Program-made: the position numbers and the translations under genes
Notes under the pieces: generated by a model
The model's input: only the letters and a program-made list of their open reading frames with translations
Told to the model about the DNA's origin: nothing
Database searches by the model: none
In this document: piece by piece, positions 19,653 to 41,523 of the stretch
Layout: every line of letters begins with the position of its first letter
How positions within the stretch are numbered: the stretch's first letter is position 1
Assembly: GCA_014338185.1 (NCBI GenBank)
Contig: QUBV01000008.1
Span: forward strand, 1 to 64,000
Direction: 5' to 3'
Source: Lysobacterales bacterium
GTDB taxonomy: Bacteria > Pseudomonadota > Gammaproteobacteria > Xanthomonadales > Rhodanobacteraceae
Length of the DNA stretch: 64,000 bases

Positions 19653-20786
19653 ATGCGCACGCTGCTGTTGTCCCTGCTGTTGGTGTTTACGGCCACGCTG
19701 GTGCCGGGTCCGGCACGGGCCGGGGTCTTTTGCGTGCGCAACCATACCGAGTTGCAGCAGGCGTTGACCGCGGCCGCGGCCTCGCCCGGCGATGATGAGA
19801 TCAGGATCCGCGAAGGCATCTACACCACCTTCAACGGCACCTTCACCTACAACGCCCAGACCACAGGCTGGCTGTGGCTCATCGGCGGCTGGTATACGGT
19901 CGACGGCAACGACTGCGCGCAGATGCGCATGGACGCCTCGCGCACGATCCTCGATGGAGCCGGCCAGAGTCGGGTGCTGCAGATACTCCTGATGCCGCCG
20001 GCGGGCACCACGCAATCGGCGCGTCTGGGCGTGATGAACCTGACGCTCGCCAACGGCTATGGCGATCCGGCCACGTTCCAGCGCGGCGGCGGCGTGCAGA
20101 TGGGCTCATACTCGGACGGCTTCACCGAACTGTGGCTCGACCATGTCATCGCCACCCACAACGATGGCTATTTCGGTGGCGGCGCCGACCTGTACGCCAA
20201 GAACGGTTTCGTGCGCATCGCCAACAGCCTGTTCGACCACAACGATGCCAGCACGACGGCATACGGCCATGCGGCGATCACCGTGGTGGCGACACCGGCC
20301 AACGTGTCGCCGGCCATCATCATCGCCAACAGCACCTTCGGCCGCGGGCGCTGCGCCGGCAACGGCACACGCGGCTGCGGTGTCGGGGTGGGACTGCCCG
20401 CGGGCGTGCACCTGGCGGTGCTCAACAGCCTGTTCCACGACAACGCGATCTCCGACCTCAACCTCGAGGGCATGGCGGTGATCGGCTTGGGCAATGGCAG
20501 TGCGGCGGCCGACTACAGCCTCATTCCGATCCTCAGCGGCAACCTGCCGCTGGCCGCCACCCATGCATTTGCCGGCGATCCGATGTTCGTCGATCCCGCC
20601 AATGGCAACTTCCGCCTGCGCGATGCGTCACCGCTCATCAACCAGGGTCTGGCGCCGCTGCCCTACTACCCGCTGGGCAGCGCCGATCTCGATGCACAAC
20701 TGCGCGTGCGATTCGATGCCGTCGATCCCGGACCCTACGAGAACCAGACCTGGGACCGGATCTTCGTCAACGGCTTCGATCCGTGA
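19653..20786 (+). CDS. Exported right-handed beta-helix protein (choice-of-anchor Q-like) with GFD tail
   Basis: 377 residues. The signal peptide is LLLSLLLVFTATLVPGPARA. The body has the rungs of a right-handed parallel beta-helix (IIIANSTFG, LAVLNSLFHDNAI). Near the end it carries GDPMFVDPANGNFRLRDASP and LINQG, the pattern of choice-of-anchor Q domains found in surface or secreted proteins. The protein finishes WDRIFVNGFDP; this ending recurs in other exported proteins of the window. GGAG lies 8 bases before the ATG. No catalytic residues were recognised, so function (polysaccharide binding or cleavage, or surface display) is open. It converges with the GH5-like gene. Confidence 0.82.
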   Translation: MRTLLLSLLLVFTATLVPGPARAGVFCVRNHTELQQALTAAAASPGDDEIRIREGIYTTFNGTFTYNAQTTGWLWLIGGWYTVDGNDCAQMRMDASRTILDGAGQSRVLQILLMPPAGTTQSARLGVMNLTLANGYGDPATFQRGGGVQMGSYSDGFTELWLDHVIATHNDGYFGGGADLYAKNGFVRIANSLFDHNDASTTAYGHAAITVVATPANVSPAIIIANSTFGRGRCAGNGTRGCGVGVGLPAGVHLAVLNSLFHDNAISDLNLEGMAVIGLGNGSAAADYSLIPILSGNLPLAATHAFAGDPMFVDPANGNFRLRDASPLINQGLAPLPYYPLGSADLDAQLRVRFDAVDPGPYENQTWDRIFVNGFDP

Positions 20787-20867
20787 AGCGCCCGACGCCG
20801 GCGCCCGCTCACGGCATCGGCGCCACGCCACCGGCGACGGCCGGCGGCATGCGCACCGCCGCTCCCG

Positions 20868-21908
20868 CTAGCCGCCGTCGAACCCGTCGGCGAAGATCGG
20901 CGGCAGATACGGCGTGAGCCAGGCCATCTGCGGCGCATCGATGCTGAAGCCGGCGCTGGGTTCGAGCGTGAACATGTAGTCGCCCCACCACGGACCGGCC
21001 GCCCACCAGGTCCAGCCGAGCCAGACGTCGGCGTTGTCCCTGAGGTGGCCGAGCGCGTTGTCGACGGCGCTGTGGCAGCCGGGATTGTCGGCGCCGGCCA
21101 ACTCGGCGAGAAAGCCCTTGTAGCCATGCGTGCGCAGCCACGCGGTCACGCCCTGCAACTGGCTGGCGCCGGTGCCGGGCGCGGCCAGGCAGGTGGTGCT
21201 GGTGCCCGAATAGTCGGCGTCGAAGTACTGATGCAGCTCGAAGGCGTAGTGGTTGCCGCTGTCGACGATGCCGAGCATCGCCACCGCATTGGGCGTGCCG
21301 TACCAGTTCTGTTCCCAGCTGTGGGCGCCGGTCCAGGCGTTGCCGGGCACGAGGACCAGCTGCTGCGCACCACTGGCGCGGATCGCCGCGATCGCGGCAT
21401 TGGCCGCGGCCAGCCACTGCTCGGTCGGCATCTGCATCGGCTCGTTCATGAGGCCGAACACCACGTGCGGGCTGGCGAGATGGTGCGTGGCCAGGCGCGA
21501 CCAGAAATCGGCGAACGCGGCATGGGGCACCGCGGGCGATCCGATCGGCACACCGCCGTAGCGGGCGAAGTTGTGCGGGTTGAGGATCACGCGGATCCCG
21601 AGCGAGGCCGCATGCGCGACCAGCGCATCGAGCGAGGCGAGGTAGTCCGCGTCGAGCGGCCCGTTCAACGTCGGCTGCATGCGTTCCCAGCGGAAGCCGA
21701 TGCGCACGATGTTCATGCCGCGCGCGTGGAAATAATCGAGTTCCTCGACGGTTGGCCAGATGTAGTCGATGCCGAGCTGCCCGGGAATCGCAGTGCCGAA
21801 CTCCGCTCCGGCGAGGTTGACGCCGCCGAACGTGTTGTTGGCCCGCGCGGCCGGAATCGCGCCAGGCAGCAGCGCGGCAGTCAACAGGATTGCAATGGTG
21901 CGATACAT
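20868..21908 (-). CDS. Secreted glycoside hydrolase, GH5/cellulase-like, with GFD tail
   Basis: 346 residues with a signal peptide (ILLTAALLPGAIPAARA). The TIM-barrel pattern of GH5 is visible: GMNIVRIGFRWERMQP at strand beta-2, VILNPHNFARYG, VFGLMNEP with the acid/base glutamate, YAFELHQYFD with the conserved histidine and tyrosine, and FLAELAGADN with the probable nucleophile glutamate. It should cleave a beta-glucan or related beta-linked polysaccharide outside the cell. It ends LPPIFADGFDGG, similar to the tails of two other exported proteins here. The start has a G-rich ribosome-binding site. Confidence 0.85.
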   Translation of the reverse strand: MYRTIAILLTAALLPGAIPAARANNTFGGVNLAGAEFGTAIPGQLGIDYIWPTVEELDYFHARGMNIVRIGFRWERMQPTLNGPLDADYLASLDALVAHAASLGIRVILNPHNFARYGGVPIGSPAVPHAAFADFWSRLATHHLASPHVVFGLMNEPMQMPTEQWLAAANAAIAAIRASGAQQLVLVPGNAWTGAHSWEQNWYGTPNAVAMLGIVDSGNHYAFELHQYFDADYSGTSTTCLAAPGTGASQLQGVTAWLRTHGYKGFLAELAGADNPGCHSAVDNALGHLRDNADVWLGWTWWAAGPWWGDYMFTLEPSAGFSIDAPQMAWLTPYLPPIFADGFDGG

Positions 21909-21977
21909 GATGCCCCCGACGGCCCGGTGCCCGGCTTCAGGTACGCAGTTTCACGGCCCGCCCCGCCACCGGCGCCC

Positions 21978-22008
21978 AAAAACGCAGCGGACACCCGCAG
22001 GTGTCCGC
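21978..22008 (-). terminator. Intrinsic terminator after the FadL-like gene
   Basis: On the minus strand GCGGACACC-TGCG-GGTGTCCGC forms a perfect 9-base stem with a 4-base loop, followed by TGCGTTTTTGG. It lies just past the stop codon of the leftward porin gene and before the GH5-like gene. Confidence 0.85.
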
Positions 22009-22059
22009 CGCCTCCCTCCCCAACCGTGGTGACCGGCGCGCGCGGCGCCGGCCCATCGC

Positions 22060-23397
22060 TCAGAACGTCATCTGGCCCGACACACCGAGCAGGTTGCCGT
22101 AGCTTTCGAAATGGCCGACCAGCGTGTCGAATGTGCTCGTGGGATGGTTGATCTTGCCATCGTCGACGAACAGGTGCACGAAGCCGGCATTGATGCGCAT
22201 GTTGTCGCTGTACTGGTAGTCCACGCCGAACGCGATCCACTTGCGCGAACCGTCGGGCACGCGTGGATCGCGGTATTCATCGACGGTCGGCGTCTGGTCG
22301 TAGGCGACGCCCGCGCGCAGGGTCCAGCGGTCGTTGAGGCGATAGTCCGCGCCCACCGAGAAGAACCAGGTGTCCTCGAAGCCGAAGATCGTCGGCCGGT
22401 TGTACATGGCCTGTGCCGGGTTGGCATAGACGATGTCGAGGCGCTCGAAGCTCGACCAGTGCGTGAAGCCGACGTCGACGCCGAAGCTCAAGCGGTCGTT
22501 GGCGGTGTGCCACCAGCTCGCACGGGCGTAGGCGGGTGTGTTGAAGTCGGCCTTGCCGCCGGTGTTCACGAACGCGCCGTTGAAGTACGGCAGCACGTTC
22601 GAGGGCACCTCGAACTTGGCCTTGCCGTCGATCACATGGTCGATCTGCGAGCGGAAGTTGAGGCCGATGCGGTCCGAATCGGTCGGCTTCCACAACAGGC
22701 CCAGGCCCCAGCCAAAGCCCCAGTCCTTGCCGGTGAGCGTGCCGCGGCCATCGGCCTCCTGCGGCAACCATGCGCCATTGGTGGGCTGGGCGAGGATGGT
22801 GCCCAGGTTGATGGCCTGGCCGAGCGTGGCGGTGGTGCGCTGGATCACGAAGCTCAGACCCACCGAAAACTCATCCGACGCACGCCATGAGCCGGACAGC
22901 GTGATCGCCGGCGACTGCAGCTTGGTGGTCTGGGCCAGGTAGCGGCCCATCCAGCGATCGTGGTACTCGGTCTGGAAGCCATAGGGCACGGTCAGCGCCG
23001 CGCCGAACACGAACTGGTCGTTGATCGGGCGGATGTAGTGGGTCGCCGGCACCGGGACCGTGGCGCCGCCATTGCCGCCGTCGTCACCCGTCAGCGGGCG
23101 TCCGAGCAGGTCGGTACCGCTGCCATGGAACTGGGTGCTGAAGTTGATGAGGGTGAGGTCGGCCTGCAGGCACGAGGTATGGAACTGGCTCATCGCAGCC
23201 GGATTGTTCACCACCACGGAACAGTCGCTGGGCGCCGCGGCCGAGCCCGCGAACGCGCGCCCGAGCCCGATGGCATTGTTTTCGGACAGCTGGAAGGCAG
23301 CGGCTTGCGCCTCGCCCGCGCCCAAGGCCATCGCCAGCGCGAACGGCAAGGCGGCAAGGGCCAGGATACCCTGGTTGCGACGATGGCTGTGCTGCAT
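22060..23397 (-). CDS. Outer membrane transport protein, FadL/OmpP1/TodX family
   Basis: 445 residues. After the signal peptide (LALAALPFALAMALGAGEAQA) the mature protein starts AAFQLSENNAIGLGRAFAGS, the FadL N-terminal hatch pattern with the family's NPA (VVNNPAAMSQF). The rest has alternating aromatic strands of a 14-stranded barrel and ends in Phe (LGVSGQMTF), as outer-membrane barrels do. The family takes up long-chain fatty acids or other hydrophobic compounds. AGGAG lies 7 bases before the chosen ATG; an upstream in-frame ATG at 23439 lacks this. A strong terminator follows. It is divergent from the esterase gene. Confidence 0.9.
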   Translation of the reverse strand: MQHSHRRNQGILALAALPFALAMALGAGEAQAAAFQLSENNAIGLGRAFAGSAAAPSDCSVVVNNPAAMSQFHTSCLQADLTLINFSTQFHGSGTDLLGRPLTGDDGGNGGATVPVPATHYIRPINDQFVFGAALTVPYGFQTEYHDRWMGRYLAQTTKLQSPAITLSGSWRASDEFSVGLSFVIQRTTATLGQAINLGTILAQPTNGAWLPQEADGRGTLTGKDWGFGWGLGLLWKPTDSDRIGLNFRSQIDHVIDGKAKFEVPSNVLPYFNGAFVNTGGKADFNTPAYARASWWHTANDRLSFGVDVGFTHWSSFERLDIVYANPAQAMYNRPTIFGFEDTWFFSVGADYRLNDRWTLRAGVAYDQTPTVDEYRDPRVPDGSRKWIAFGVDYQYSDNMRINAGFVHLFVDDGKINHPTSTFDTLVGHFESYGNLLGVSGQMTF

Positions 23398-23573
23398 ACC
23401 GCTGCTCCTCTGGCAAAAAGTGTTGGCGTGGAATGCCACGAATAGGCCGGGATATTAACGTCAACTTCACCAAGCTGGCCATCGTGCGCTGCCGCAAACG
23501 GTGGCGTATGGTTGGAGCCGCCGGCGGGTCGTGCCAGCATGCCCACCGCACCGACGTCCACGACCAGCCACCG

Positions 23574-24464
23574 ATGCCCCGCATACCGCAGTCGATCCTG
23601 TTGCCAGCCGCCCTCGCGCTCGCGGGCATGCCCTGCGCCCAGGCCGCGCAGACGGTGACCCTGCCCGCGAGCCTGTGTCCGCAATCGGACCCTTTGTTCG
23701 CAAGCGGCTTCGAAACCGCGGTGGCGATCCCGTCGCAGCCCTCGCTCGGCAGCGGCGGCGCCTACCCGGGTGCGCTGGTGCGCACCATCAACGTGGGCGG
23801 GCTGGGCACGCGCAGCTACTACCTGTACGTGCCCACGGGCTACACCCCGTCGCAGGCCTGGCCGTTGTTGCTCGCCCTGCGCGGCACCACCCTGCCCACC
23901 GCGAACGGCGCACAACAGGTGCGCAACAACTGGAGTGGCATCGCCGAGGCCGAAGGGTTCATCGTGCTTGCCCCGGTGGGCAACTCCACCCAGGGCGGCT
24001 GGGGCGCGAGCGGCGACGCCACCGAGATATCGGCCGTGCTCGACGATGCACTGGCGCACTACAACGTCGAGCGCAGTCGCATCCACCTTTGGGGCTTTTC
24101 CGCCGGTGCCCACTATGGCCATGCGCTGGCGCTGAACAATCCGCACTACTTCGCGGCTTACGCCGCCAGTGCAGGCTCGCTGGAAATGTATGCCTGCACG
24201 GACGACGGCTCGTATCCACCGACCTGCGCCGCCTTGCTCGGCTCCGTGCAGCCGAAGATCCCGGTCGACATCCACCTGGGCACGAACGACCCCCTGTACA
24301 GCCCGCCGCACACCGCGTCCGGCGATGTGCTGCGCTTCCAGGCCAACGGCTGGACGCTCAATCGCAACCTGTACTACACCGTTTTCAATGGCGGCCACAC
24401 CTACAGCGTGCCCCAGCTCGACGACACCTGGCGGCACCTGTGCCCGTTTGCCCTCGCGCAGTGA
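23574..24464 (+). CDS. Exported alpha/beta hydrolase, PHB-depolymerase/esterase-like
   Basis: 296 residues with a signal peptide (LLPAALALAGMPCAQAAQ). A catalytic triad is suggested by HLWGFSAGAHYGHAL (nucleophile Ser in GFSAG), HLGTNDPLY (Asp) and FNGGHTYS (His). RSYYLYVPTGYTPSQAWPLL is the entry pattern of the LpqC/PHB depolymerase esterase family. Between signal peptide and domain there is SDPLFASGFE, the same motif that closes other exported proteins here, found near the N-terminus instead. Likely secreted; substrate could be a polyester, feruloyl ester or similar. Confidence 0.8.
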   Translation: MPRIPQSILLPAALALAGMPCAQAAQTVTLPASLCPQSDPLFASGFETAVAIPSQPSLGSGGAYPGALVRTINVGGLGTRSYYLYVPTGYTPSQAWPLLLALRGTTLPTANGAQQVRNNWSGIAEAEGFIVLAPVGNSTQGGWGASGDATEISAVLDDALAHYNVERSRIHLWGFSAGAHYGHALALNNPHYFAAYAASAGSLEMYACTDDGSYPPTCAALLGSVQPKIPVDIHLGTNDPLYSPPHTASGDVLRFQANGWTLNRNLYYTVFNGGHTYSVPQLDDTWRHLCPFALAQ

Positions 24465-25353: not shown

Positions 25354-28176
25354 TCAGTAGTTCAGGTGCACGTTGAGGTAGTACTGGCGACCGCTTTCAT
25401 ACATCGAGCGCGGCTGGGTGCGGCTGAGCGCGAAGTACTTGAGCTTGGGGTTGTTGAGGTTGAGCGCGTCCAGCGACACCGTCCAGTGGTCGTTGAACTT
25501 GTACCCGAGCGACGCGGCCAGGTTGCCGACGCTGTCCTGCGAGAACGCGGTGGCGCGATCCAGGCCGCTGTAGAACGCCGAGCGGTAGGTGTAGGACACG
25601 CGTGCGTTGAAATGCGCATCCTCGTAGTAGGCGCTCACGTTGTAGGTATTGCGCGAGGTGCCGATCAACGCGCCGCCGCCGTCTTCCTTGCCATCGGCGT
25701 AGGTGTAGTTGAGCGCGATACCGAAGTTGTCGAGGATCGGCTGTTCGTAGGCCAGCTCCACGCCCTTGACCGAGCCGCTGCTGTTGACCGGCACGCTCAG
25801 CACGTACGGCGCGTCGAACCCGTCCGGATAGACGTTGCTGAAGGTGCGGAAGGTCTGCGTGACGTGGCCCAGGCCGATGTAGCTGGTCAGGTCCAGATAG
25901 AACACGCTGGCCGACACCACCGAGCGCGGCGCGAAGTAATACTCGAGCGAAGCGTCGAAATTGTTGGAGCGGATCGGCTTGAGGTTGGGGTTGCTGCCGC
26001 TGCCCGAACCGGTGCCACCCGGCGCCGACGGCGGGGTGAGCGAGATCGCACCCGCGAGCGCCGAGTAGTCGGGCCGGGTCATCGTGCGCGCCGCCGCCAG
26101 TCGCAGCACGAGGTCGTCGCTGAGGTCGAACTTGAGATTCGCGCTGGGCAGGATGTCGTTGTAGCTGTTGTTGAACGCAGTCGGCAGGTAGGCGCCGAAT
26201 GCCGACACCGTGATCGCACCGGGCGTGTTCGCATCGACCGCGACGTTGGCGACCACGTGCTCATCCGTGCGCACCAGGCGCAGGCCCGCGTTGCCGTTCC
26301 AGCCATCGCCACCGAAATCGAACTGCACGTAGGCCGCCGCGTTCTTCTCACGCAGTGCGTACATCGAGTTCCAGTTGTCGCGCACGCCGGGCACGCGGTT
26401 GGTGTAGCGCTGGTTGAACGCGTGCAACTGCTCGGGCGTGTAGTACCAGATGTTGCTGGGGAAGCCGCTGCCCAGCCCGTTGCCGAAGTCGCCCGGATAG
26501 TTGTGGTAGCCGACCGGGAAGTTCGCCGGATTGAACGGCGAGATCGAGCCGTCGGTGCAGTAGTACGGCGCACCCCAGTCGAACGGCGCGCCCGCGGCGC
26601 TGCCATCGGCGCACTTGGGACCCTGGCCGACCACACCCGAGGAACTGCGGTCGTGCTTGGACCAGCGCACGCCGAAGCGGATGTCGGCCAATGCGCCCCA
26701 GGCGGCCTCGAACAGGCCGTCGAGCTGTGCCCACTGCTCCTTGTCGCGGATGTTGATGTTCTGGTCGCCGAAGATCCAGCCCAGCGGGTCGCCCGGCGCG
26801 CCGGTGTTGGTCGAACCCAGGTTCCAGGTCGCCGCCTGGTTGACGCCGTTGAGGATGTAGGCCGCGCCGTTGCCGGCGCCGATGTTCCATTCGGCCACGT
26901 CCTGGGTCGGCGTGCGGCCGTTGCCGCGCGTGACACCGAACTTGCCGTTGAAGCTGAGCGCATCGTTGAGACGCCAGTTCACGTCGAGGTTGACGAAGTT
27001 CGAGCTCGAGCTCGCATCCGGGCGCGAGATCATGTCGTACACGCCGTACACCGTGCCGGGCACACCCTGGAAGCTGGCCGACACCAGCGTGCCGTCACGC
27101 ACCACGTAACCCGCATCGGGGCCCTGGCCGGCACCGCGGTTGATGAAGTGGGTCAGCCACATGAGATAGTTGCGGTTGTAGTTGGCCGCATCCATCTTCG
27201 AGCTGAAGCCGGTGAGGTTGAACGCGAGGTCGTCCGACGGTTTCCACTGCACGTCGATGATGCCGCCGGTGCGCTTGCGCACCTGCTCGAACAGGGCCGA
27301 GCCGAGCATGGTGGGATACCACACATTGGCCAGGTCGGGATGGGCCAGGGCCACCGCGCTGTCAGGCGCGATCTGCTCGTAGCCGAGCAGTTCCTGGCCG
27401 TCGCGGCGCAGGTGGCGCTTCTCGACGAACGCCTGCACCATCACGCCGAAGGTCTGGTCGGCGTTGGCCCAGTTGACGAGGCCGCTGAACTGCGGGTCGG
27501 TCTTGTCGGGACGTTCGGCAAACACCGCGCCGAGGTTGGCCGACACCGTGAACGGCTGGCTGAACTCGAGCGGCTTGCGTGTCTGGATGTCGATCGCACC
27601 GGCCACGCCACCTTCCAGGTCGGAGGCCTGCGCGGTCTTGTGCACCACGATCTTGCTCACGATCTCCGATGGCAGCAGGGTGTAGGTGACGCTGCGACCG
27701 ACGGTCTGGGTCTGGTTGAGCACGAACCAGTCGCCCGAGGACACCACATGGCCGTTGATGAGCGTCTGGGTCAGGCTCGGGTTGGTGCCGCGCATGCTCA
27801 CGCGGTCGTTCTCGTCGAAGCCGCCTTCGTTGGCGCTGGCCGAGCTCGTGGTGACGCCGGGCACGCGCATGAGCGAGTCGGCGACGTTCTTGTCGGGCAT
27901 CTTGCCGATGTCCTCGGCGGTCACCACGTCGACGTGCGAATCGGCCAGGCGCTTGTCGTCGAGCGACTTCTTGAGGCTCTCGCGGATGCCGCGCACCACG
28001 ATCGTTTCCATCTGCTGGCTGCTGTCCTGCTGCGGATCGGCAGCGGCGGCGGCACTGTCGGCCGGCGCGTCTGCGGATGCCGCGTCGCTGCGCTCGGCTG
28101 CTGCCGCGGTGCTGGCCATGGCGAGCCCGAGGCCCGCGATGATGCTGGCCGACAGCAAGGTCTTATGACATTTCAT
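25354..28176 (-). CDS. TonB-dependent receptor, probable carbohydrate transporter
   Basis: 940 residues. The signal peptide is MKCHKTLLSASIIAGLGLAM followed by ASTAAAA. The plug shows METIVVRGIRESLKKSLDDK, MPDKNVADSLMRVPGV and RVSMRGTNPSLTQTLINGH, which are typical of the large TonB receptors abundant in Xanthomonadales and Caulobacter. The barrel ends in an aromatic residue (YLNVHLNY). Lying beside glucokinase, a sugar permease and a LacI regulator, it probably imports an oligosaccharide. No SusD-like partner or glycosidase is adjacent. The frame extends upstream, but the chosen ATG starts the signal peptide and has GAGGGGAG before it. A strong terminator follows. Confidence 0.93.
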   Translation of the reverse strand: MKCHKTLLSASIIAGLGLAMASTAAAAERSDAASADAPADSAAAAADPQQDSSQQMETIVVRGIRESLKKSLDDKRLADSHVDVVTAEDIGKMPDKNVADSLMRVPGVTTSSASANEGGFDENDRVSMRGTNPSLTQTLINGHVVSSGDWFVLNQTQTVGRSVTYTLLPSEIVSKIVVHKTAQASDLEGGVAGAIDIQTRKPLEFSQPFTVSANLGAVFAERPDKTDPQFSGLVNWANADQTFGVMVQAFVEKRHLRRDGQELLGYEQIAPDSAVALAHPDLANVWYPTMLGSALFEQVRKRTGGIIDVQWKPSDDLAFNLTGFSSKMDAANYNRNYLMWLTHFINRGAGQGPDAGYVVRDGTLVSASFQGVPGTVYGVYDMISRPDASSSSNFVNLDVNWRLNDALSFNGKFGVTRGNGRTPTQDVAEWNIGAGNGAAYILNGVNQAATWNLGSTNTGAPGDPLGWIFGDQNINIRDKEQWAQLDGLFEAAWGALADIRFGVRWSKHDRSSSGVVGQGPKCADGSAAGAPFDWGAPYYCTDGSISPFNPANFPVGYHNYPGDFGNGLGSGFPSNIWYYTPEQLHAFNQRYTNRVPGVRDNWNSMYALREKNAAAYVQFDFGGDGWNGNAGLRLVRTDEHVVANVAVDANTPGAITVSAFGAYLPTAFNNSYNDILPSANLKFDLSDDLVLRLAAARTMTRPDYSALAGAISLTPPSAPGGTGSGSGSNPNLKPIRSNNFDASLEYYFAPRSVVSASVFYLDLTSYIGLGHVTQTFRTFSNVYPDGFDAPYVLSVPVNSSGSVKGVELAYEQPILDNFGIALNYTYADGKEDGGGALIGTSRNTYNVSAYYEDAHFNARVSYTYRSAFYSGLDRATAFSQDSVGNLAASLGYKFNDHWTVSLDALNLNNPKLKYFALSRTQPRSMYESGRQYYLNVHLNY

Positions 28177-39975: not shown

Positions 39976-41523
39976 TCAGGGGCTGTCGAAGCCATCCTGC
40001 AGGATCGTGTCGTCCGCCAGTGCCGCCTGCAGCGCGGCCCACACGTCGATGCGGCCCCAGCCGGCCTGGTGGTTGGGGCGGTCCGCAAGCGTGAGCCCGC
40101 CACAACCGCTGTTGTACGGATCGGTGATCCCTTGCCACACCGCAGTGTCGCGCAGCAGTTGCGCGACCTGCTGCGGATGGCCCCTGAGCGCGGGCAGTGC
40201 CGACATCAGCAATGCGGCCGCACCGGCCACGTGCGGCGCGGCCATGCTGGTGCCGCTCTTGTTGCCGTAACTGTTGGTGGCATCGCGCAAGGCCGAGCGT
40301 ACGCCCGCGCCGGGCGCGACCACGTCGGGATGGACATGGGTGGCGCCCGCGACCGGACCGCGGCTGGAGAACGCCGCGATCGCATCGGCGGCATTGCTCG
40401 CGCCGACCACGAAGGCGCTGTCGTAGGTCGCCGGCGGATCGCCGATCGTGTTGCACGCCGGGCCATCGTTGCCTGCGGCCGCGACGAACAGGATGCCGCC
40501 GGCCACCACGTTGTCGACCGCGGCACGGATTTCCTCGCCGCTGCTGCAGCCTTCCGTGGCGAGGCAGCCCCACGAGTTGCTGCTCACGTCGGGCGCGCGA
40601 TCGGGATCGGGATTCTGGCCGTTGGCATCGGTCGGCGCCAGCGTCCATTGCATGCACTCGATGTAGCGCGCAGGCGTGCCGTAGCCAGCGGCCATGTTGC
40701 GGCAACCGATCCACTGCGCGCCCGGTGCGACACCGATCTGGTTGGCGCCGCCATCGTCGCCGATCACGGTGCCGGTCACGTGGGTGCCGTGGCCGTAGTC
40801 GTCACACGGCGCGCCGGCATCGTTGCCGCACGAGTTGCCCGCGGCATCGTGGATCGCATCGTGCCAGTTGTAGGCATGGCTCGCGCTGCTGCCGTTCCAG
40901 CCGCGATAGTGCGGCCGCAACGCGGCGTGATCCCAGCGTATGCCGGTATCGGCCACGGCGACCACGACGCCCTGACCGGTATGGCCGAGCGCCCACACGG
41001 CCGGCGCGTTGATCTGCGCCACGCCGTATTCGATGGCGGCGGGCGCATGGCCGGCGCGGGCGGGGCGCGCGGCCTGCGGCAGCGCCTGCGCCAGCCGCGG
41101 GTTGGCGCGAATGTGGGCGATGTCGTCGCGCGCGGCCAGCAGCGCCAACGTCGCGGGTGTGGTGCGCACCCACACCACATTCGCGATCCACCACGCGCGA
41201 TGCTCGACGCCCTGCCCGCGCAGCCATGCGCGCAGGTCCGCCTGCTGCGCATCCGCGCGTGCCCGCAGCGCATCGACCAGCACGTGCCGGCGGATGCGCG
41301 GATCGACCGCGGCCGCCAGCGGCGCGAGCATGGGTCGACTCTGATCGGGCAGCACGAGCAGTGCCTCGACGGTGCCATCGCGCGCGACCCGCTCCAGCAC
41401 CGCGGGCTCGATCGTGGCGGCGCAGGCCGGTGCGGCCAGCAGCGCCCAGGCGACTGCGGCAAGGCAGCGCAGGCGTGGCGCGGGACGGATCGTGGCGGAA
41501 ACGCGGGTGCGGGATCGGATCAT
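39976..41523 (-). CDS. Secreted subtilisin-like serine protease (S8) with GFD tail
   Basis: 515 residues. A signal peptide (AAVAWALLAAPACA) is followed by a roughly 120-residue propeptide-like region, then the peptidase domain. The catalytic triad is Asp in VAVADTGIRWDH, His in DDYGHGTHVTGT and Ser in SGTSMAAPHVAG; the oxyanion Asn lies in VAAAGNDGPACN. Several paired cysteines (NSCGNDAGAPC, GCLATEGC) suggest disulfides. The protein ends DDTILQDGFDSP, closely like the tails of the beta-helix and GH5-like proteins 16-20 kb away. It lies downstream of rpoD in the same direction but is unlikely to be functionally linked. Confidence 0.9.
   Translation of the reverse strand: MIRSRTRVSATIRPAPRLRCLAAVAWALLAAPACAATIEPAVLERVARDGTVEALLVLPDQSRPMLAPLAAAVDPRIRRHVLVDALRARADAQQADLRAWLRGQGVEHRAWWIANVVWVRTTPATLALLAARDDIAHIRANPRLAQALPQAARPARAGHAPAAIEYGVAQINAPAVWALGHTGQGVVVAVADTGIRWDHAALRPHYRGWNGSSASHAYNWHDAIHDAAGNSCGNDAGAPCDDYGHGTHVTGTVIGDDGGANQIGVAPGAQWIGCRNMAAGYGTPARYIECMQWTLAPTDANGQNPDPDRAPDVSSNSWGCLATEGCSSGEEIRAAVDNVVAGGILFVAAAGNDGPACNTIGDPPATYDSAFVVGASNAADAIAAFSSRGPVAGATHVHPDVVAPGAGVRSALRDATNSYGNKSGTSMAAPHVAGAAALLMSALPALRGHPQQVAQLLRDTAVWQGITDPYNSGCGGLTLADRPNHQAGWGRIDVWAALQAALADDTILQDGFDSP

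Follow-up and report, generated by a model that had tools for sequence, protein, structure and literature searches.

Proteins exported by a Lysobacterales bacterium share a short peptide tag, D-x-I-F-x-[DN]-G-F-[DE], which was recognised in a 64,000-nucleotide stretch of its genome (contig QUBV01000008.1, positions 1 to 64,000; hereafter the window). About 60 unrelated exported proteins of the source genome carry it. There is hardly room for doubt that the tag is real and lineage-restricted, and it very probably functions in sorting, secretion or docking. As far as sequences allow a judgement, it could tentatively be read as a recognition label for secretion or sorting that acts after the Sec or twin-arginine (Tat) step. 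The most likely receptor would be a second type II secretion system (T2SS), designated here T2SS-A.

Consensus, position and carriers of the tag

The source genome (3.17 Mb, 118 contigs, 99.99% complete) was scanned with a DNA pattern for [ILMVF]-F-x-x-G-F-[DE], and the reversed pattern served as control. Stretches around genome matches were fetched and their open reading frames (ORFs) were read; L-numbers below denote loci and G-numbers genomes. The scan returned 70 matches versus 1 for the reversed pattern. Among 71 copies, Asp two positions before Ile is present in 64, Ile in 66, the first Phe in 70, and Gly and the second Phe in all 71. The residue preceding Gly is Asp (32 copies) or Asn (28 copies), and position x is frequently Ala or Arg. 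The core of the motif given in an earlier sequence-only reading of the window, [IL][FL]x[DNS]GF[DE], is correct; its wording overlooked the Asp two residues before Ile and is better replaced by the consensus above. An exported-looking protein (L194:80-673, G057) ends in DDLIFSDNFE at its stop codon, with Asn where Gly is otherwise invariant; strict patterns therefore miss some tags.

Most copies are C-terminal: 55 of 70 in-frame copies lie at most 10 residues from the stop, against 1.9 if copies were placed randomly within these ORFs. A C-terminal frequency no higher than chance, considered in the sequence-only reading, was therefore not found. In these 55 copies the motif is followed by 0-10 mostly polar residues, and in 17 of the 71 it ends exactly at the stop codon. 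At the DNA level the copies are spelled in 51 different ways, with synonymous changes, which shows that selection acts on the peptide and not on the DNA. A DNA repeat or terminator in place of a peptide is ruled out on the same grounds.

Copies are also located directly behind the signal peptide, as in DUF1800 proteins of the source genome (L068) and of another family (G005: L104, L106), where the tag precedes a conserved RFLTQA block. Others lie within linkers, and tandem copies 11-13 residues apart are found in L107, L124 and L127. The copy at a signal-peptide junction had been regarded as an exception. This view does not hold, because copies at the N-terminus or within linkers are found repeatedly, and two families have preserved them in DUF1800 proteins. 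Together with the tandem copies, they indicate that a free C-terminus is not required, which speaks against a classical cleavage-and-transpeptidation signal. In L107 (G010), two tandem tags follow the signal peptide, and the second runs into IFADGFETGDTSAWTTT. This segment looks like the opening strand of a jelly-roll domain, a possible source of the tag in evolution.

Signal-peptide-like starts were counted with one heuristic in 41 of 48 C-terminally tagged proteins and in 9 of 9 tagged internally or N-terminally, compared with 79 of 215 untagged neighbours, in agreement with the proposed recurrence of the tag on exported proteins. A stricter version of the heuristic was also used; most of the tagged genes failing it show a signal peptide by eye. 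Tat-like starts are present in two carriers: MPSFNRRDFLKG in L048 (5495-7237, a DUF1501 protein) and RRR in L080 (2796-4112). The Sec or Tat signal peptide expected of a type II substrate is thus present in nearly all tagged carriers, as judged by the heuristic and, for most of the rest, by eye, which fits a T2SS. The carrier folds include S8, M9, M14, GH5, GH44, LRR, RCC1, endonuclease I, DUF1501 and DUF1800. The tag set holds a DUF1501 protein beside DUF1800 proteins.

Of 57 tagged proteins compared with NCBIfam, 11 belong to the choice-of-anchor Q family and 4 to choice-of-anchor J. Choice-of-anchor families are named for members that end in differing sorting signals. Several of the choice-of-anchor Q proteins read from other Gammaproteobacteria terminate in a Gly-rich or IPTL-like helix with an Arg tail (L430, L442, L447, L448, L455, L458), whereas in the source genome the tag follows the domain directly (DIGAVEYVDVIFANGFDDAP at the stop). 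Within Lysobacterales, two tagged proteins have a homologue in G015 that carries an IPTL-like tail in place of the tag. The tag therefore occupies the site of other lineages' sorting signals. Two further choice-of-anchor Q proteins of other Gammaproteobacteria (L434, L437) end in short helix-free tails, SFFVIPIKTGNATAFCL and SFFVVPMPDGKSVIFEL; possibly these sequences represent a second undescribed C-terminal tag.

Taxonomic range and comparison with known sorting signals

Tag counts are bimodal over 398 genomes of the order. The source genus has 42-146 copies and several other genera about 14-100, with 0-3 in most other genera of families f1 and f2. The strict 9-residue pattern gives 52 matches in the source genome and 0-1 per genome both in about 270 other gammaproteobacterial genomes and in about 290 genomes of a phylum sample. 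The tag is essentially confined to part of the order Lysobacterales and is patchy within it. The suggested spread over Lysobacterales stands for several genera and fails for the order as a whole. Named genomes among the matches listed are Marinicella (at least 35 loci), Dokdonella, Tahibacter, Rudaea, Pseudofulvimonas and Lysobacterales metagenome-assembled genomes (MAGs). Also among the matches listed are a few tagged loci labelled Alcanivoracaceae, Planctomycetales or Bacillota MAG BP5.bin58, and some MAGs without an order label. Tagged loci labelled outside Lysobacterales are likely to come from misclassified or contaminated MAGs. Of the few genomes compared here, MAGs and Dokdonella come closest to the source genome.

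Among the best cross-genome matches of tagged proteins of the source genome, 25 of 27 are also tagged while their flanks drift, a figure biased by the choice of the compared neighbourhoods for their tags. The tag is retained in homologues across families, and the flanks are variable. Absence from orthologues in sister species, the other outcome considered in the sequence-only reading, was not observed: homologues in other species and families are tagged.

No sorting-signal model of NCBIfam 20.0 or Pfam matched any of nine tag tails at E values up to 10, in a search by which very short models could be missed. No sorting-signal model occurs among the 25 families most frequently matched by full-length carriers. 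A description of the tag was not found in the open-access literature on Marinicella, Dokdonella, C-terminal sorting and T2SS signals, and exact tag peptides used as a literature query gave false matches only. The tag thus looks undescribed, with neither a curated Pfam or NCBIfam model nor a published description found.

Several known systems resemble the tag in part. With helix-type CTERM signals it shares many carriers with unrelated folds and signal peptides. The tag has neither the transmembrane helix nor the basic residues at the C-terminus that characterise helix-type CTERM signals; its motif and tail also differ from those of LPXTG signals (LPXTG-like motif, helix and basic tail). It was correctly recognised at the outset as distinct from the PEP-CTERM and LPXTG types. 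GlyGly-CTERM, known with rhombosortase from Vibrio, Shewanella and Acinetobacter (PMC3237569, PMC6219818), is likewise a lineage-restricted C-terminal label of many Sec-exported proteins per genome with unrelated folds and choice-of-anchor domains. It is linked to T2SS, as proposed here for the tag. Unlike GlyGly-CTERM, the tag is about 9 residues long, may be N-terminal or in a linker, and lacks a membrane helix, a basic tail and a rhombosortase. Rhombosortase (TIGR03902) exceeded the curated cut-off in 0 of 59 genomes, in which only generic rhomboids were found, and is ruled out as the partner of the tag. The helix tails of PEP-CTERM, IPTL-CTERM and MYXO-CTERM sit behind choice-of-anchor domains at the site of the tag, but consist of a hydrophobic helix and an Arg-rich end, neither of which the tag has. 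The C-terminal domains of type IX secretion in Bacteroidota are also helix-free secretion signals of dozens of cargo proteins. At about 70-100 residues, however, they form folded domains and come from another phylum, whereas the tag is a short peptide.

T2SS-A as a candidate reader of the tag and the alternatives

T2SS is encoded in 59 of 59 genomes searched, tag-free relatives likewise. A GspD search revealed tag-rich genomes with two full-length secretins. The T2SS-A copy on the window's contig (gspC, gspD, gspE, gspF) is located about 25 kb downstream of the window. The operon order is gspC-D-E-F, often followed by ftsE/ftsX-like genes, and GspC-A comprises an HR region and a PDZ domain. 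Genes of an FtsE-like ATPase and an FtsX-like permease lie behind gspCDEF in L194, L192, L184 and L168; no pseudopilin genes were seen in the T2SS-A operons of these loci.

In a tree of 60 GspD proteins, clade A (support 99) holds one GspD from each of 17 of 17 tag-positive genomes, representing ten families. It also takes in two tag-poor genomes of genus g33. The second GspD of three tag-free f2 genomes is placed on long branches outside this clade. When the source-genome GspD-A protein was scored against 80 chosen genomes, the values were bimodal: 32 genomes reached 340 bits or more and the others stayed under 165 bits, bar a divergent second system of f2 (G086, 259 bits). G212 has only a GspD-A fragment. 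Over 112 genomes, tag and GspD-A occur together in 40 and are both absent from 58; 6 genomes have only the tag and 8 only GspD-A, so that 98 are concordant.

Several points weigh against T2SS-A as the reader. The Fisher value for the link in these 112 genomes (about 1e-16) overstates it, since related genomes are not independent, and the independent concordant gains or losses may be two or three only. Three genomes of family f8 (G063, G097, G171) have genuine tags without GspD-A, and G063 carries only a complete Xps-type system (H-I-J-K-L-M-C-D cluster). Genus g33, family f7 and G230 show the reverse, GspD-A with almost no tags. To our knowledge, Xanthomonas-type relatives use T2SS without any such tag. 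Because f8 keeps tags without T2SS-A, the link between the two is suggestive only; this family allows three readings, namely recognition of the tag by the Xps-type system, survival of the tags as relics, or a reader of the tag other than T2SS-A.

Loss of the GspC PDZ domain as the cause of the few tags in GspD-A-positive genomes is ruled out, since all aligned GspC-A proteins retain it. In Xps-type GspC of the same genomes and of tag-free genomes, no PDZ match was detected. This agrees with the published description of XpsC, which has a 2P region, whereas OutC and EpsC have a PDZ fold (PMC11981180).

According to the proposed explanation, a short transplantable tag would mark proteins for another shared step once Sec or Tat has taken them across the inner membrane; this step could be the crossing of the outer membrane or fixation at it. 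Since a free C-terminus is not needed, the tag would most likely be bound by a receptor as a short strand or hairpin (with x-[DN]-G as the turn) and would most likely not be a transpeptidase cleavage signal. The periplasmic face of T2SS-A would be the most likely receptor. The weakest inference of this explanation is that T2SS-A, and its PDZ domain, reads the tag; T2SS-A is a possible candidate for this role, to be held with reserve. No common linear signal is known for T2SS substrates (PMC7949064, PMC12369372). PelI has a 9-residue loop (loop 3) to which GspC and GspD bind and which acts as a T2SS signal (PMC7949064), and secretion of VesB requires the EpsC PDZ domain (PMC12369372). If GspC/GspD recognised the tag as a short exposed element, the principle would be that of PelI loop 3 and the VesB Ig-fold; those elements are protein-specific and structural, whereas the tag is a common linear sequence. 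It is rather doubtful that this position-independent nonapeptide is a common linear T2SS signal read by the PDZ-bearing GspC and the GspD N-domains of the second Lysobacterales T2SS.

The tag could alternatively serve for surface docking. Proteins would leave the cell by an ordinary exit, and binding of an outer-surface partner (an outer-membrane protein, lipoprotein or polysaccharide) would retain enzymes at the cell. This is a possibility worth entertaining, under which the co-occurrence with T2SS-A would be incidental or indirect. It accords with the place of the tag in choice-of-anchor proteins, where cell-surface sorting signals sit elsewhere, and with the persistence of tags in f8 without T2SS-A; tandem copies and N-terminal, linker and C-terminal sites suit multivalent binding. 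However, it leaves the co-occurrence unexplained, and no candidate receptor was found. When the tag neighbourhoods of seven genomes were compared all against all, they had nothing in common but ordinary genes and further tagged proteins, by which a conserved neighbour gene encoding a dedicated enzyme is also ruled out. Sortase-like processing, in which a protease or transpeptidase would cut at the motif and couple or release the protein, is improbable. The strongly C-terminal position at the site of GlyGly-CTERM/IPTL-type signals would suit it, but helix, basic tail and rhombosortase are missing, motifs that end exactly at the stop leave nothing to remove, and cutting at N-terminal or linker copies would sever the tag from the protein or halve the protein.

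A handle for periplasmic quality control, bound by a PDZ protease or chaperone that holds or degrades the protein before export, is very improbable. The hydrophobic I-F core is compatible with it, and C-terminal peptides are typical PDZ ligands; the acidic hydrophilic ending, however, is unlike known degrons, and periplasmic PDZ proteases are widespread while the tag is not. Least credible, and already disfavoured, is an element without common function, either a strand that opens or closes a widespread beta-sandwich, or a DNA repeat. The jelly-roll-like continuation of the motif in L107 points in this direction. The tag nevertheless stands behind complete domains of many unrelated kinds, frequently coincides with the end of the protein, has the many DNA spellings mentioned above and is absent from nearly all other Proteobacteria sampled.

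From sequence alone, the tag delimits a secretome of some 15-150 members in each genome. Its bearers, which include Marinicella, Dokdonella, Tahibacter and their relatives, are bacteria of soil, sludge and the sea whose exported enzymes are poorly annotated. If a T2SS does read it, substrate recognition by T2SS would become directly testable with a nine-residue peptide, and a transplantable nonapeptide signal would be new among T2SS recognition elements. A docking tag would represent a helix-free means of protein display on the Gram-negative surface.

Tagged proteins of the window and neighbouring genes

All four copies noted originally in the window are in frame at their positions (Table 1), and a six-frame scan of the window yielded no true tag copy beyond them. 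A loose match, VYPDGFDAP at 25833, seems to be due to chance; it lies in an ORF of 997 codons that has a signal peptide.

Table 1. Tagged proteins of the window and their tags
Feature	Position	Strand	Basis
Exported beta-helix-like protein, C-terminally tagged	19653..20786	+	Signal peptide MRTLLLSLLLVFTATLVPGPARA; terminus TWDRIFVNGFDP at the stop
Tag D-R-I-F-V-N-G-F-D (protein end RIFVNGFDP)	20754..20780	+	In-frame reading
Exported GH5 glycoside hydrolase (cellulase), C-terminally tagged	20868..21908	-	PF00150, E 4e-46; signal peptide; terminus PPIFADGFDGG at the stop
Tag I-F-A-D-G-F-D	20877..20897	-	In-frame reading and pattern match
Exported esterase-like protein, tag right behind signal peptide	23574..24464	+	Borderline PF10503; contains LCPQSDPLFASGFE
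N-terminal tag D-P-L-F-A-S-G-F-E	23688..23714	+	In-frame reading and pattern match
Exported S8 (subtilisin-like) protease, C-terminally tagged	39976..41523	-	PF00082, E 1e-49, residues 183-490
Tag D-T-I-L-Q-D-G-F-D (protein end TILQDGFDSP)	39985..40011	-	In-frame reading

The unrelated folds ascribed to these carriers could be verified with Pfam for the S8 protease and the GH5 hydrolase, both identified correctly from the start. The esterase-like protein is borderline (PF10503, 22.7 bits versus a cut-off of 23), and the ORF at 19653-20786 has no Pfam match over the cut-off, its beta-helix assignment being made from the look of the sequence. The catalytic domain of the S8 protease excludes the tag. 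Its homologue L420 (55% identical) ends in ADTIFKNGFE, compared with DDTILQDGFDSP in the window. The predicted structure of the S8 carrier (two sequences) had a mean predicted local distance difference test score (pLDDT) of 30 and was uninformative on tag exposure.

Genes of an ECF sigma factor (PF07638) and of a Ser/Thr kinase-TPR protein are situated near tagged genes and the T2SS-A locus of the source genome (L034, L053, L056, L168). Their products are perhaps regulators of the tagged genes or of T2SS-A.

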